From contig NZ_CAMFJS010000037.1 in assembly GCF_945956965.1 (NCBI RefSeq), forward strand, positions 1 to 37,750: a stretch of DNA of 37,750 nt, given 5' to 3'. The stretch is from an uncultured Roseateles sp. GTDB lineage: Bacteria; Pseudomonadota; Gammaproteobacteria; Burkholderiales; Burkholderiaceae_C. Both the position numbers and the translations under genes were made by a program. Below the pieces are notes generated by a model, which did no database searches, was not told the DNA's origin, and was given only the letters and a program-made list of their open reading frames with translations. The first letter of the stretch is position 1; each line of letters begins with the position of its first letter. Below are positions 13,447 to 19,643 of the stretch, piece after piece.

Positions 13447-14535
13447 ATGAGCGCACCATTACAAAACGACACCTTCCTGCGCGCCTGCCTGCGCCAGCCC
13501 ACCGACTACACGCCCGTCTGGCTGATGCGCCAGGCTGGACGCTATTTGCCCGAGTACCGCGACACGCGTGCCAAGGCCGGCAGCTTCATGGGCTTGGCCA
13601 CCAATCGCGATTACGCGACCGAGGTGACCCTGCAGCCGCTGGAGCGTTATCCGCTGGATGCCGCCATTCTGTTCAGCGACATCCTCACCGTGCCCGACGC
13701 CATGGGCCTGGGCCTGACGTTTGCACAGGGCGAGGGCCCTAAGTTCGCCAAGGTCGTCCGTGACGAAGCCGCCGTGGCCGAGTTGGCCGTGCCGGACATG
13801 AACAAGCTGAAGTATGTGTTCGACGCTGTGTCGTCGATCCGCAAAGCCTTGAACGGCCGTGTGCCTTTGATCGGCTTCTCCGGCAGCCCCTGGACGCTGG
13901 CCTGCTATATGGTCGAGGGTGGCGGCTCGGACGACTACCGTCAGGTCAAGAGTCTGATGTACGCGCGCTCCGATCTGATGCATCGCATCTTGGCGGTCAA
14001 TGCAGACTCGGTGGCCCAGTACCTCAACGCGCAGATCGAAGCCGGCGCGCAGGCTGTGATGATTTTTGACTCCTGGGGCGGCGTGCTGGCCGACGGCATG
14101 TTCCAGCAATTCAGCCTGGAATACTCGCGCCGCGTGTTGGCGCAGGTGAAGACCGAGCATGAAGGCAAGCGCATTCCTCGCTTGCTGTTCACCAAGGGCG
14201 GCGCCCTGTGGCTGGACGAGTTGGCCGATGCCGGCGCCGATGTGGTGGGCCTGGACTGGACCGCCAATCTGGGCCGTGCCCGCGCTCAGGTGGGTGACCG
14301 CGTGGCCTTGCAGGGCAATCTGGACCCCAATGTCTTGTTCGCCCCGCCAGACGCCGTGCGTGCCCAGGTGCGCGCCGTGCTGGACAGCTTTGGCAACCCG
14401 CGCCGGGCCGACGGCAGCTGGGACGGCCATGTGTTCAATCTGGGCCATGGCATCAGCCAGTTCACGCCCCCAGAACACGTGACAGCTCTGGTGGACGAGG
14501 TGCATAGCTATTCACGCAAGCTGCGCGCTCTTTGA
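13447..14535 (+). CDS. hemE: Uroporphyrinogen decarboxylase
   Basis: HemE removes four carboxyl groups from uroporphyrinogen III to give coproporphyrinogen III in haem synthesis. The 362-residue protein has the signature [12 protein letters not shown] (Arg28, Arg32), the active-site Asp78 in [14 protein letters not shown], and the second signature [19 protein letters not shown]. Length is normal and it is cytoplasmic. It is divergent from lemA and is followed by the unusual gap before priA. Confidence 0.97.
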
Positions 14536-14546
14536 CGGAGCAAGCG

Positions 14547-14572
14547 CCACGCCAGAGTGTTTTCTGGCGTGG
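14547..14572 (+). other. Perfect 10-bp hairpin after hemE
   Basis: CCACGCCAGA pairs with TCTGGCGTGG around a 6-nt loop, 11 nt after the hemE stop. No T-run follows on either strand, so terminator function is uncertain. Its right arm overlaps a DnaA-like box at 14568-14576. Confidence 0.45.
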
Positions 14573-14859
14573 ATAAAACGTGAAGTAAGCACTCAGGTTT
14601 TGACTTATCCCCAAAACAGGGCAGCTTGCCCACAGGGGGAATCCATATCGTTACGCAGCCTATGGTTTTCCCGATTGAATGCTAAGTGCTTGATTTAAAA
14701 CAGTTTGTAAACTTTCCCCCAAAATTCGTCGTTGACGGCTGGCTTGGGTGACAGAGACAAATTGACACGGTTGCCAGCACTTTTCCCACAAAGTTATCCA
14801 CAGCTGAATTGGCGCTCAAATCGCTGCCTTTCCTGGCCCTTCTAAATCATGCACTTAGC
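14568..14859. promoter_or_regulatory. DnaA-box cluster with IHF site and AT-rich segment (hemE-priA gap)
   Basis: The 380-bp gap between hemE and priA holds no gene. It contains a perfect DnaA box TTATCCACA at 14794-14802. One-mismatch boxes lie at 14605-14613 (TTATCCCCA), 14782-14790 (TTTCCCACA) and 14568-14576 (reverse strand, CGTGGATAA). A two-mismatch box is at 14626-14634. A perfect IHF consensus, AATCAAGCACTTA, is on the minus strand at 14683-14695. The segment around 14660-14725 is AT-rich compared with all neighbouring genes. Clustered DnaA boxes, IHF and AT-rich DNA are the parts of a replication origin or a DnaA-controlled regulatory site. Which of these it is cannot be decided from this window. 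Confidence 0.6.
14681..14859. repeat. 16-bp inverted repeat flanking the perfect DnaA box
   Basis: The arm at 14681-14696, read on the minus strand, is AAATCAAGCACTTAGC. The arm at 14844-14859, on the plus strand, is AAATCATGCACTTAGC. They match at 15 of 16 positions, and 147 bp lie between them. A shorter relative, AAGCACTCAG, occurs at 14587-14596. The left arm contains the IHF consensus and the right arm matches it with one change. Confidence 0.75.
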
Positions 14860-14915
14860 GCGTCAATCTAAGGTTAGGACTAAACAATCGCCGAGCTTTG
14901 GCGCGGCATCCGCGC

Positions 14916-17030
<2,115 letters not shown>

Positions 17031-17069: not shown

Positions 17070-17762
17070 TCAGCGTAGTTGCGCGAGTACCTGGCGCAGG
17101 CGCAGCCACAAGGGCCCGGCAGCCGCCATATCACGCTGACCCGCCATGCGCTCCAGCTGTTGCGCGAGGTCATGCCCCTCGGTCTCGCCCAGCATCTGAA
17201 GCGCCGACTTGAGGCTGTGCGCCAGCAATTGCAGTGCGCCAGCATCTGCCCGCGCGCAAGCCTGGTCGCCGCTGGTTTGATCGGCCGGGAACTGCTTCAA
17301 GCAGCTCTGCCGGAAGGCCGTGTACAGGGCTTGGTTGCCTTGGAAGTGCTGGGCCAGCACTTGTGCTTCTGTGTGGGGCGCAACAGGCGTGAGCGCCAGT
17401 GCTTCTTCCACACAGGCCAGCAAATCCGTCAGCGAGCAGGGCTTAGGCAGCAAGCGCCAGATATGGGCTTGCTGCAGGCGCGCACGCACTGCTTCATTCA
17501 GGCCCGCGCTGAAGATCACCAGCTTGGCCTGGCCTTGCAGGGCGGGCTGTTCGCCCAGGACCTGCACCAGGTCGAAGCCGGTGCGCAGCGGCATCATCAG
17601 GTCGGTCAGGATCAGTGCGGCGGGGTGTTCGGCCAGGCTGGCCAAGGCGGCATCAACGCTGCTGCAGCAATGCAGTTCAATCGGCAAATCTTCCAGCGCC
17701 GCGCGCACGAAATGCTGGACGGGGACGTTGTCCTCGACCAGCAAAACGCGCGGCAGACTCAT
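17070..17762 (-). CDS. Response regulator with C-terminal Hpt domain
   Basis: The 230-residue protein has an N-terminal receiver domain with acidic pocket Glu10-Asp11, phosphoacceptor Asp54 (LILTDLMMP) and Lys107 (LLPKP). Residues 135-230 form an Hpt domain with LLAHSLKSALQMLGE, where His182 is the likely phosphorylated histidine. It has no DNA-binding or enzymatic output, so it probably relays phosphate. Its ATG overlaps the stop of the HTH-REC gene by 4 nt (ATGA), so the two are translationally coupled. It is convergent with priA. The kinase encoded at 19676-22222 lacks a receiver and Hpt, so these two genes could supply the missing relay parts. Confidence 0.87.
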   Translation of the reverse strand: MSLPRVLLVEDNVPVQHFVRAALEDLPIELHCCSSVDAALASLAEHPAALILTDLMMPLRTGFDLVQVLGEQPALQGQAKLVIFSAGLNEAVRARLQQAHIWRLLPKPCSLTDLLACVEEALALTPVAPHTEAQVLAQHFQGNQALYTAFRQSCLKQFPADQTSGDQACARADAGALQLLAHSLKSALQMLGETEGHDLAQQLERMAGQRDMAAAGPLWLRLRQVLAQLR

Positions 17763-18466
17763 GAATGGCTGTCGGCCAGGTCAGCGGCGGGCGCGGTCTC
17801 CGCCAAGGCCTCGCGCAGCAGGGGCGGCAGGTCACGCACGAGATTGGGCTTGTGCACCACCGGCACGCCGGTCAGCGCAAAGGCGTAAGGGGCGCGCTGT
17901 GCTTCGTCCAGCGAGGTCACCACGATCAGCTTGCTTTGCGCGAACTGTGCCTGCGAGCGCAGGCTGGTGATCAGTGTGGCGCCGTCAATGCCTGGCAACA
18001 AGATGTCGACGATCAGCACATCGGGCAGCAATTGTCCGCACATGGCCAGGCCGACGATGCCGTCCTGCGCGATGTGCAAGTCCACGCCGGGGAAATGTTG
18101 GCCCACCAAGAGCGACATCAGATTCTGGAAGTGCACCGAATCTTCGATCAGCAGCAAGCGTGGCGCCGCGGCCACTCGGCCACTGCGGTTGCCGCGCGGG
18201 CGTGGCTGAAGGCCTGCGCCCGCGTTGGGCTCGGGGCGGCGTTCGCTGCGTGCGTTGGCGGCATTACCGCCTCGGCGCTGAGCCGTCCAGGCTTCGACCG
18301 AATTGCGCGAAATGCGTCTATGCCCGCCTGGCGTTTTCCAGGCCACCAGATCACCGCGGTCGACCATCAGCTGAACCGAGCGCACGGCCAAGCCCAGCAT
18401 GCGAGCGACCTCCATGGTGCTGCAGTCCGGGCTGTCGGTGGCGGCTTGTGCTTTATTGTTGGGCAT
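17759..18466 (-). CDS. HTH (MerR/excisionase-like) DNA-binding protein with C-terminal receiver domain
   Basis: In this 235-residue protein, residues 16-60 form a winged helix of the MerR/BldC/excisionase type, with TMEVARMLGLAVRSVQLM and then the wing motif TPGGHRRI. A basic, Gly/Arg/Asn-rich linker spans about residues 62-100. A receiver domain follows with Glu108-Asp109, phosphoacceptor Asp154 (LIVDILLPG), Ser/Thr near VVTS and Lys206 (VVHKP). In common response regulators the receiver comes first; here the order is reversed. The frame is open far upstream to 18970, but the ATG at 18466 gives a sensible N-terminus. It likely regulates transcription in response to phosphorylation. The upstream gap holds repeated candidate operators. 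Confidence 0.85.
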   Translation of the reverse strand: MPNNKAQAATDSPDCSTMEVARMLGLAVRSVQLMVDRGDLVAWKTPGGHRRISRNSVEAWTAQRRGGNAANARSERRPEPNAGAGLQPRPRGNRSGRVAAAPRLLLIEDSVHFQNLMSLLVGQHFPGVDLHIAQDGIVGLAMCGQLLPDVLIVDILLPGIDGATLITSLRSQAQFAQSKLIVVTSLDEAQRAPYAFALTGVPVVHKPNLVRDLPPLLREALAETAPAADLADSHS

Positions 18467-18486
18467 CGTTCGATTTTGCCGAAATT

Positions 18487-18586
18487 TGGCACAAGCTGGC
18501 GCAAAATTGCCCAGCAAATCAGCACCATTGATAAATTCATTGTTGAAAATAGCACTTGGCGCCAGGGTATTTGCCGGCTGGCGCCG
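18487..18586. promoter_or_regulatory. Four TGGCRC motifs in a divergent intergenic region
   Basis: The 325-bp gap between the HTH-REC gene and the binding-protein gene holds four related sites. They are TGGCACAA (18487-18494), TGGCGCAA (18497-18504), the palindrome TGGCGCCA (18557-18564) and TGGCGCCG (18579-18586). Start-to-start spacings are 10, 60 and 22 bp; two of them are close to whole helical turns. The stretch 18480-18560 is AT-rich and is a likely promoter zone for the minus-strand genes. The sites are candidates for binding by the HTH-REC protein. Nothing else is recognised between 18590 and 18790. Confidence 0.4.
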
Positions 18587-18791
18587 CAGTGGGTCTAGCC
18601 GTCGAGCAAGCCGCGGCACTTTGATCGAGTGCGAATAAGGGCCGCTTTTTGTGATTGCCATGCATTCATGCGCGGGTGAATCGGCTTTGCAGCGGAGATG
18701 ATGCAAGGCGCGCGGTGCTTGATGTCGGGGCGGCGCGCAAGGTGCTGGATTTTTGCTCTGCCAATTCACCCAAGCCCTGGAGAAACGAAAG

Positions 18792-19643
18792 ATGTCGCAA
18801 GCAGGAACGTTCGCCGGCCAGTGGGCTGCGGCGCTATGCCTGGTGGTGCTGCAAGCGCTGCAGCCCGCCTGTGCGCAGGCGGCGCAATCCTCGCCGGGCG
18901 CCAAACCCAGCCCGGCAGGGCCAGCCGTGCTGGAGCGGGTGCGCAGCAGCGGCGTGCTGCGGGTCTGCATTTGGCCGGACTATTACGGCGTCACTTACCG
19001 CGACCCGCGTAATCAGCAATTCGGCGGCATCGACATCGAGTTGTCCGCCGAGTTGGCGCGTGATCTCAAGGTCAAGCTCCAATATGTGGAGTCCTCTTTT
19101 GTGCAGCTGATTGCCGACGTCACCGGGGATCGCTGCGACATCGCCATGTTCGCCATCGGCGTGCTGCCACAGCGCAAAGAGCATTTGAGTTTCAGCCAGC
19201 CCTATTTGCGCAGCGATATTTACGGCGTGGCCAGCCGCACCAGTCGCAGCGTGCGCGAGTGGGCTGATATCGATAAACCCGGCGTGGTGGTGGCCGTGCA
19301 GGCCGGCACCTTCATGGAGCCGGTGATGGCCGCCGCACTGAAGAATGCCCGCATGACCGTGGTCAAGCCGCCTGCCACCCGTGAGCAGGAATTGGAAAGC
19401 GGCCGTGTCGATGTCTTCATGACCGACTACCCCTACAGCCGGCGTCTGCTGGAGAACGCGGACTGGGCCAAGCTGATCGCGCCGCCGCAGCCCTTCTACA
19501 CCTTGCCTTATGCCTATGCCGTCAAGCCGGGCGACGCGGCCTGGCTGGCGCGGGTGGATGAGTTTGTGGCCGCCATCAAGCGCGATGGCCGTTTGGCCGC
19601 CGCAGCCAAGCGCCATGGCCTCAGCGCCATCGTGGTGAACTGA
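18792..19643 (+). CDS. Periplasmic solute-binding protein, family 3 (amino-acid type)
   Basis: The 283-residue protein has a signal peptide (cut near the Ala-rich stretch after LQPACAQA, about residue 30). A family 3 solute-binding domain follows: VLRVCIWPDYYGVTYRDPRNQQFGGIDIELSAELARDL, CDIAMFAIGVLPQRKEHLSFSQPYL, then GVVVAVQAGTFMEPVM and GRVDVFMTDYPYSRRLL. The TTG at 18753 would add residues before the signal peptide, so the ATG at 18792 is chosen. No permease or ATPase gene is nearby. The next gene, 32 nt on, is a histidine kinase. The protein probably senses a small molecule and passes the signal to that kinase instead of feeding an importer. The ligand is unknown. Confidence 0.87.
   Translation: MSQAGTFAGQWAAALCLVVLQALQPACAQAAQSSPGAKPSPAGPAVLERVRSSGVLRVCIWPDYYGVTYRDPRNQQFGGIDIELSAELARDLKVKLQYVESSFVQLIADVTGDRCDIAMFAIGVLPQRKEHLSFSQPYLRSDIYGVASRTSRSVREWADIDKPGVVVAVQAGTFMEPVMAAALKNARMTVVKPPATREQELESGRVDVFMTDYPYSRRLLENADWAKLIAPPQPFYTLPYAYAVKPGDAAWLARVDEFVAAIKRDGRLAAAAKRHGLSAIVVN

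Follow-up and report, generated by a model that had tools for sequence, protein, structure and literature searches.

The window, that is, the whole 37,750-nt stretch of DNA analysed here, is contig 37 of a 4.96-Mb draft genome (G000), whose nearest named relatives by PriA include Paucibacter and Pelomonas. It carries hemE and priA on the same strand, separated by an intergenic gap that contains the features listed in Table 1. For priA, an in-frame ATG at 14916 is a likelier start than the TTG at which the open reading frame begins, and box II ends 114 bp ahead of this likely ATG. DnaA boxes were counted using the consensus TTWTNCACA, and the count agreed with the original prediction of one perfect and three one-mismatch boxes within 235 bp. 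The perfect IHF consensus named there was located on the minus strand, and the local AT-richness noted there was confirmed by a GC content of 0.496 for the gap against 0.629 for the window, with 0.3% of 379-bp windows being equally AT-rich. A search for RNA elements gave no Rfam match up to E = 1 within 14300–15200. The layout of the element is box 1, 78 bp, the IHF site, 111 bp, and a core composed of boxes III and II and a weak inverted box I. Among 3000 first-order Markov shuffles of this gap, 1.3% had at least four boxes and 1.6% had a perfect IHF site; taken alone, the box and IHF content of the gap is only moderately beyond chance. The element was hence accepted as real on account of its conservation across relatives, which is decisive, and not on account of single-gap shuffles. 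The additional minus-strand box was found at that place in no other of the 90 hemE–priA gaps listed and does not belong to the conserved element.

Table 1. Features of the hemE–priA region in the window (DARS, DnaA-reactivating sequence; R1, sequence model of the element described in the text).
Feature	Position	Strand	Details
hemE, uroporphyrinogen decarboxylase	13447..14535	+	TIGR01464, 411 bits
hemE–priA gap	14536-14914		between two plus-strand genes
Additional DnaA box	14568..14576	-	one mismatch; outside the conserved element
Whole conserved DARS-like element (R1 match)	14600..14812	+	90.8 bits, E 1.6e-25 in own genome
Distal DnaA box 1	14605..14613	+	TTATCCCCA, one mismatch; 189 bp before box II
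IHF-binding site (predicted)	14683..14695	-	TAAGTGCTTGATT on the plus strand; every consensus letter present
Core DnaA box III	14782..14790	+	TTTCCCACA, one mismatch; 12 bp upstream of box II
Core DnaA box II	14794..14802	+	perfect TTATCCACA
Core box I position	14808..14816	-	inverted, +14; degenerate, about 3/9 letters, counted by eye
priA, replication restart helicase	14898..17030	+	TIGR00595 / NF004067; ORF from TTG 14898
Receiver-domain protein	17070-17762	-	adjoins the fusion ORF below
ORF fusing an excisionase-type DNA-binding domain with a response-regulator receiver domain	17759-18970	-	

Conservation, Spacing and Distribution of the Element

The hemE–priA gaps of relatives were bounded by tblastn, leaving out loci without a hemE match. 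The boxes were conserved across these related genomes: a perfect TTATCCACA was present in 86 of 90 gaps (0.15 expected from Markov shuffles of the same gaps), and at least two boxes with one mismatch or fewer were likewise present in 86/90 (0.3 expected), where the 90 gaps include two contigs double-counted under different names (L018/L121, L020/L126) and one mis-bounded gap of 39 nt (L151). The two main boxes, box 1 and box II, share their orientation in the relatives. Their spacing was 186–191 bp in 75 of 99 pairs, 176–179 bp in 12, 196–199 bp in 7, and elsewhere in 5, so that 94 pairs fall into three main classes approximately one helical turn apart; these pairs came from a search 166–205 bp upstream of the right box, and a few of the left boxes have three to five mismatches. 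Box 1 reads TTATCCCCA in the genus, and TTATGCACA is the majority form in an alignment of 65 sequences. When an IHF site was defined by at least 8/9 consensus letters, 125 of the 142 elements had one of the same orientation within 66–91 bp of box 1, and 8 had one of the reverse orientation. The distance from the IHF site to box II was 107–112 bp in 123 of the 126 elements, out of 142 examined, whose IHF site has at most one mismatch, with ties resolved towards 111. A direct box III with three or fewer mismatches occupied position −12 in 98% of 124 betaproteobacterial elements, and an inverted box I of the same tolerance occupied +14 in 37% of these and in 61% of 18 other elements. In the alignment, invariant letters occur in each of box 1, box II, and the IHF site, and the AAG preceding box II is nearly invariant; the 65 rows were selected for having TTATCCACA as box II. 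Judged from these positions, a putative IHF site is flanked by two groups of predicted DnaA boxes, the distances are largely fixed and in most cases in helical phase, and the group on the right is arranged as predicted boxes III, II, and (inverted) I, as in the DARS cores of E. coli. The firm result is a DnaA-IHF element outside the origin that is under strong selection sensitive to spacing.

The breadth of its occurrence was evaluated using a strict pattern, TTATNCACA-N160..190-AAGTTATCCACA, which matched 80 of 300 genomes of the order and 82 of 369 genomes of the class, and for which the backward control gave 0/300 and 0/369, respectively. Thirty matches of the order were fetched, of which 26 lay with hemE and priA, 1 with hemE alone, and 3 with neither. 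Thirty genomes without the strict pattern were also inspected: 13 still had two direct boxes 162–188 bp apart after hemE, including three pairs at 162–164 bp and three at 174, 175, and 182 bp, outside the main classes; 3 had one box and 14 had no box after hemE, and for one of these 14 the contig stops at hemE. Tandem duplication of the element inside the hemE–priA gap was observed in Acidovorax and relatives and in some other Burkholderiales (L137, L146, L154, L157, L161, L162, L172, L210, L212, L213).

A sequence-only model, R1, was built from 65 betaproteobacterial elements, one of which is the window copy, with no E. coli sequence included; its E-values are rough owing to a shortened calibration. 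R1 detected three copies in the own genome, followed by matches of about 22 bits. Besides the hemE–priA copy (Table 1), which is a training row, these are a copy between minC and metG (79.7 bits) and a copy on contig 36 (66.4 bits), whose counterpart in the same-genus genome G008 is located between xseA and exbB. At E 1e-4 or better, R1 matched 143 of 150 genomes of the order, of which at least 10 had given a training row, and the other 7 were without a match. By copy number, 35 genomes had one, 76 had two, 25 had three, and 7 had four to six. Matches were also obtained in 17 of 18 chosen genomes and in 85 of 150 genomes sampled from the phylum. By this sequence model, the predicted element is recurrent in Burkholderiales at hemE–priA and xseA–exbB, the latter gap being its second recurrent site (L324, L326, L328, L329, L330, L289). 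An unusually large number of R1 matches, 9 and 5, was observed for G718 and G721, which belong to one family (f241) of another class in the same phylum.

Relation to the Replication Origin

The original prediction had offered a replication origin as one reading of the gap, and the DnaA boxes, IHF site, and AT-rich DNA located there, as well as the small number of boxes beside dnaA in this genus, are in favour of it. This reading was not supported when the skew was determined for G008, a complete genome of the same genus whose hemE–priA gap is 96% identical to that of the window. In 40 sampled stretches, the skew changed from negative to positive between approximately 4.26 and 4.39 Mb; a single stretch at 2.97 Mb was unexpectedly positive. 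Over the contiguous region of 4.068–4.406 Mb, the cumulative GC-skew minimum was located at 4,324,873 and the T−A minimum at 4,328,055; the former is shallow and extends as a plateau over approximately 4.23–4.33 Mb, which leaves 4.95 Mb well outside it. The dnaA gene was found at 4,226,895 and the hemE–priA element at 4,950,865, which is 0.62 Mb, or 12% of the chromosome, from the skew minimum. The minimum adjoins another dense cluster, consisting of three perfect DnaA boxes within 160 bp (4,329,678–4,329,833) and DnaA-trio-like CTACTAAGACTACTAA repeats, and this rival cluster was conserved in all 13 same-genus genomes tested. The presence of two or more dispersed element copies in many genomes also argues against an origin. 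The gap was hence rejected as a replication origin by the G008 skew, and its use as the chromosomal origin or a second one is extremely improbable. Inferred from the strand, forks that start from the skew-minimum origin of G008 would run co-directionally with hemE and priA, not head-on. The other two element copies of G008 are located approximately 1.9 and 1.7 Mb from the skew minimum, one per arm. A second genome, G021, was sampled at 24 stretches and gave a noisy skew with sign changes near 3.66–3.74 Mb and at the record start; its dnaA lies at the record start, and its hemE–priA copy at 3.437 Mb is at no skew sign change.

The cluster at the skew minimum of G008 (G008:C1:4329640-4329960; L111, L331) and its equivalent in the own genome (G000:C2:92642-92961; L332) are a probable candidate for the true origin of this genus. 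Their distance to dnaA is about 100 kb in G008 and 74 kb in the own genome; they adjoin a gene that looks MazG-like by eye and were conserved in 1 of 8 genomes tested outside the genus. A weaker second origin-like unit was observed approximately 5.6 kb from the first (G008:C1:4324080-4324264, L346; G000:C2:87073-87266, L345).

Candidate Function and Alternatives

The hemE–priA element is probably an extra-origin DnaA-control locus of the DARS type, a function that its architecture suggests, and the best reading of the predicted sites is a DARS variant with a direct distal DnaA box. By bending the DNA, IHF would bring the DnaA bound at box 1 into contact with that on the III-II-I core, and box 1 may take the role that the Fis sites and box V have in E. 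coli DARS2. ADP-DnaA collected on the core would shed its ADP, leave as apo-DnaA, and rebind ATP, and the larger amount of ATP-DnaA would serve the next initiation round at the true origin. Since the hemE–priA copy of G008 is origin-proximal and the other two are further out, they would be duplicated at different times of the cycle. The hemE–priA site may in addition bring priA under control by DnaA and IHF, and the copies found at other genes show that the module is independent of priA. The main weakness of the DARS reading is box I, which is degenerate in the window copy and has three or fewer mismatches in only the 37% of betaproteobacterial elements given above. The low R1 scores of the E. 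coli sites, of which one rppH–mutH match is outside the published core, the similar box-IHF-box order of datA, and the genomes lacking a box pair of the main spacing classes or an R1 match also count against it.

A datA-type locus appears unlikely. IHF would then loop the two box groups, ATP-DnaA would be hydrolysed to ADP-DnaA, and re-initiation would be restrained after origin-proximal copying. Such a function is in line with the order of parts in datA, a DnaA box, an IHF site of the same orientation, and a DnaA box, where the essential boxes all face one direction; according to excerpts of PMC5742627, datA needs boxes 2, 3, and 7 with one IHF site and undergoes IHF-made looping. A weak box was also seen by eye 12 bp ahead of datA box 2, the origin-proximal hemE–priA copy of G008 resembles the oriC-proximal datA (excerpt of PMC8682772), and box I, a hallmark of DARS, is weak in many betaproteobacterial copies. 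However, datA is arranged as boxes 7-2, then the IHF site at +66, then box 3 at +162, which was not found in the window element, whose IHF site lies 111 bp upstream of the tandem boxes. Other spacings and the lack of an inverted partner at +14 of box 2 also distinguish datA, and R1, which would penalise altered spacing, gave no match to it even at E up to 10.

Regulation of priA, i.e., a DnaA/IHF-controlled promoter region that couples replication restart to initiation, is improbable. In its favour are the 114 bp between the end of box II and the likely priA ATG and the neighbours found in other orders of the class, where priA adjoins the element in 21 of 38 examined loci (18 taken automatically and 20 hand-picked from about 100 places). 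The remaining 17 loci had no priA within the fetched stretch, some of them ending at contig ends, and hemN, aroE, proS, and further genes were found as other neighbours of the element. Against priA control also stand the two further copies of the own genome, one at minC–metG and one with the xseA–exbB counterpart in G008, the search of 14530–14930 in which no sigma-70-like promoter was found, and the E. coli rpmE–priA gap, which R1 did not match. Passive DnaA titration deserves very little credence. It would be served by several boxes and by the number of such loci per genome, which is one to three in 136 of the order's 150 genomes, but neither helical phasing nor an IHF site of set orientation and distance is required for titrating DnaA. 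It is a poorer fit than a DARS-type site on account of the box spacing, the position and orientation of the IHF site, and the core geometry close to that of E. coli DARS2. From the three readings originally proposed, what stands is a real DnaA/IHF site with a possible role in DnaA control or a link to priA; the origin was discarded by the skew, and titration became the poorer fit.

Comparison with E. coli DARS2 and DARS1

The control of the DnaA nucleotide state has been worked out mainly in E. coli, and Fujimitsu 2009 is the founding DARS paper. The general idea of DARS outside E. coli is not new, as it is contained in reviews: excerpts of PMC10380432 report that DARS-like sequences occur in many proteobacteria, and excerpts of PMC5742627 that beta- or gammaproteobacteria close to E. 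coli retain the DARS2 spacing. The DARS2 core has also been described as specific to gammaproteobacteria related to E. coli (excerpt of PMC4245941). The hemE–priA element was not named in the titles and abstracts searched or in the excerpts cited here, the search treating hemE and heme alike. If the DARS reading is true, a site of DARS architecture would be present in 143 of 150 Burkholderiales genomes at nameable places (hemE–priA, xseA–exbB), which would make the evolution of the DnaA cycle testable in other lineages, and R1 could be used for finding such sites in further genomes.

R1 was run against 257,502 bases of E. coli K-12, among which are oriC and datA. At E up to 10, matches were obtained only in the rppH–mutH gap (20.4 and 20.3 bits) and the bioD–uvrB gap (17.7 bits), each covering only part of the model, and none at oriC or datA; the similarity to E. 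coli DARS thus extends past individual boxes, at 17–20 bits. The match in the bioD–uvrB gap, which we take by its place to be DARS1, reads TAATACACA-TGG-TTATCCACA-GGAAT-AGTGGATAA. It has the III/II/I core geometry in common with the element, and across boxes II and I the own minC–metG copy (TTATCCACAGGAGCAGTGGATAG), in which all three core boxes are visible, is nearly identical to DARS1 (TTATCCACAGGAATAGTGGATAA). At the distance of the element's IHF site, DARS1 has only a 2-mismatch IHF-like site, and it works without protein factors (excerpt of PMC4585315).

For DARS2, primer arms of the box I–III deletion are printed in PMC4585315 (excerpt), and the deleted segment, L280 1636-1670, overlaps the core end of the first R1 match (1637-1787) in the rppH–mutH gap. 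The second match (L280:1952-2107) is a core-like unit outside the published DARS2 core, with a 2-mismatch IHF-like site at 109 bp; this second unit, 316 bp from that core, is a difference from the window element. DARS cores are described as sets of three boxes in a unique arrangement, in which I and II face opposite ways and at which ADP is released (excerpt of PMC8682772). In the direction of the element, the DARS2 core has box III at −12, box II at 0, and inverted box I at +14. Boxes III and II have these positions in the window element and its family, and box I is degenerate in the window copy; box I was reported as crucial in E. coli DARS2 (excerpt of PMC4585315), whereas it is weaker in many betaproteobacterial copies. 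As in DARS2, the window element and its family have an IHF site at a set distance from the core, and in both systems it has the same orientation and is on the box III side. It lies 99 bp from box II in DARS2, 111 bp in the window, which is about one turn more, and mostly 109–111 bp in the family. Furthermore, each has a DnaA box before box II, a perfect inverted box at −197 in DARS2, which we take to be box V, and a direct box at −189 in the window. The gene neighbours are different. According to an excerpt of PMC4245941, DARS2 is activated by IHF and Fis; it requires Fis at FBS2-3, whereas the element was compared by its DnaA boxes and IHF site alone.

It is tentatively speculated, as a possibility short of probable, that an ancestral module of DnaA box, IHF site, and DARS core, often upstream of priA, may serve Beta- and Gammaproteobacteria, together with some other Pseudomonadota, as their general means of DnaA reactivation, and that most Burkholderiales would carry two or three such modules; DARS1, DARS2, and perhaps datA would then be related forms derived from it, with Fis sites having taken the place of the distal DnaA box. 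Among the known systems, DARS2 is the one that the predicted architecture of the element resembles most, a direct DnaA box being located approximately where E. coli has the inverted box and Fis sites.
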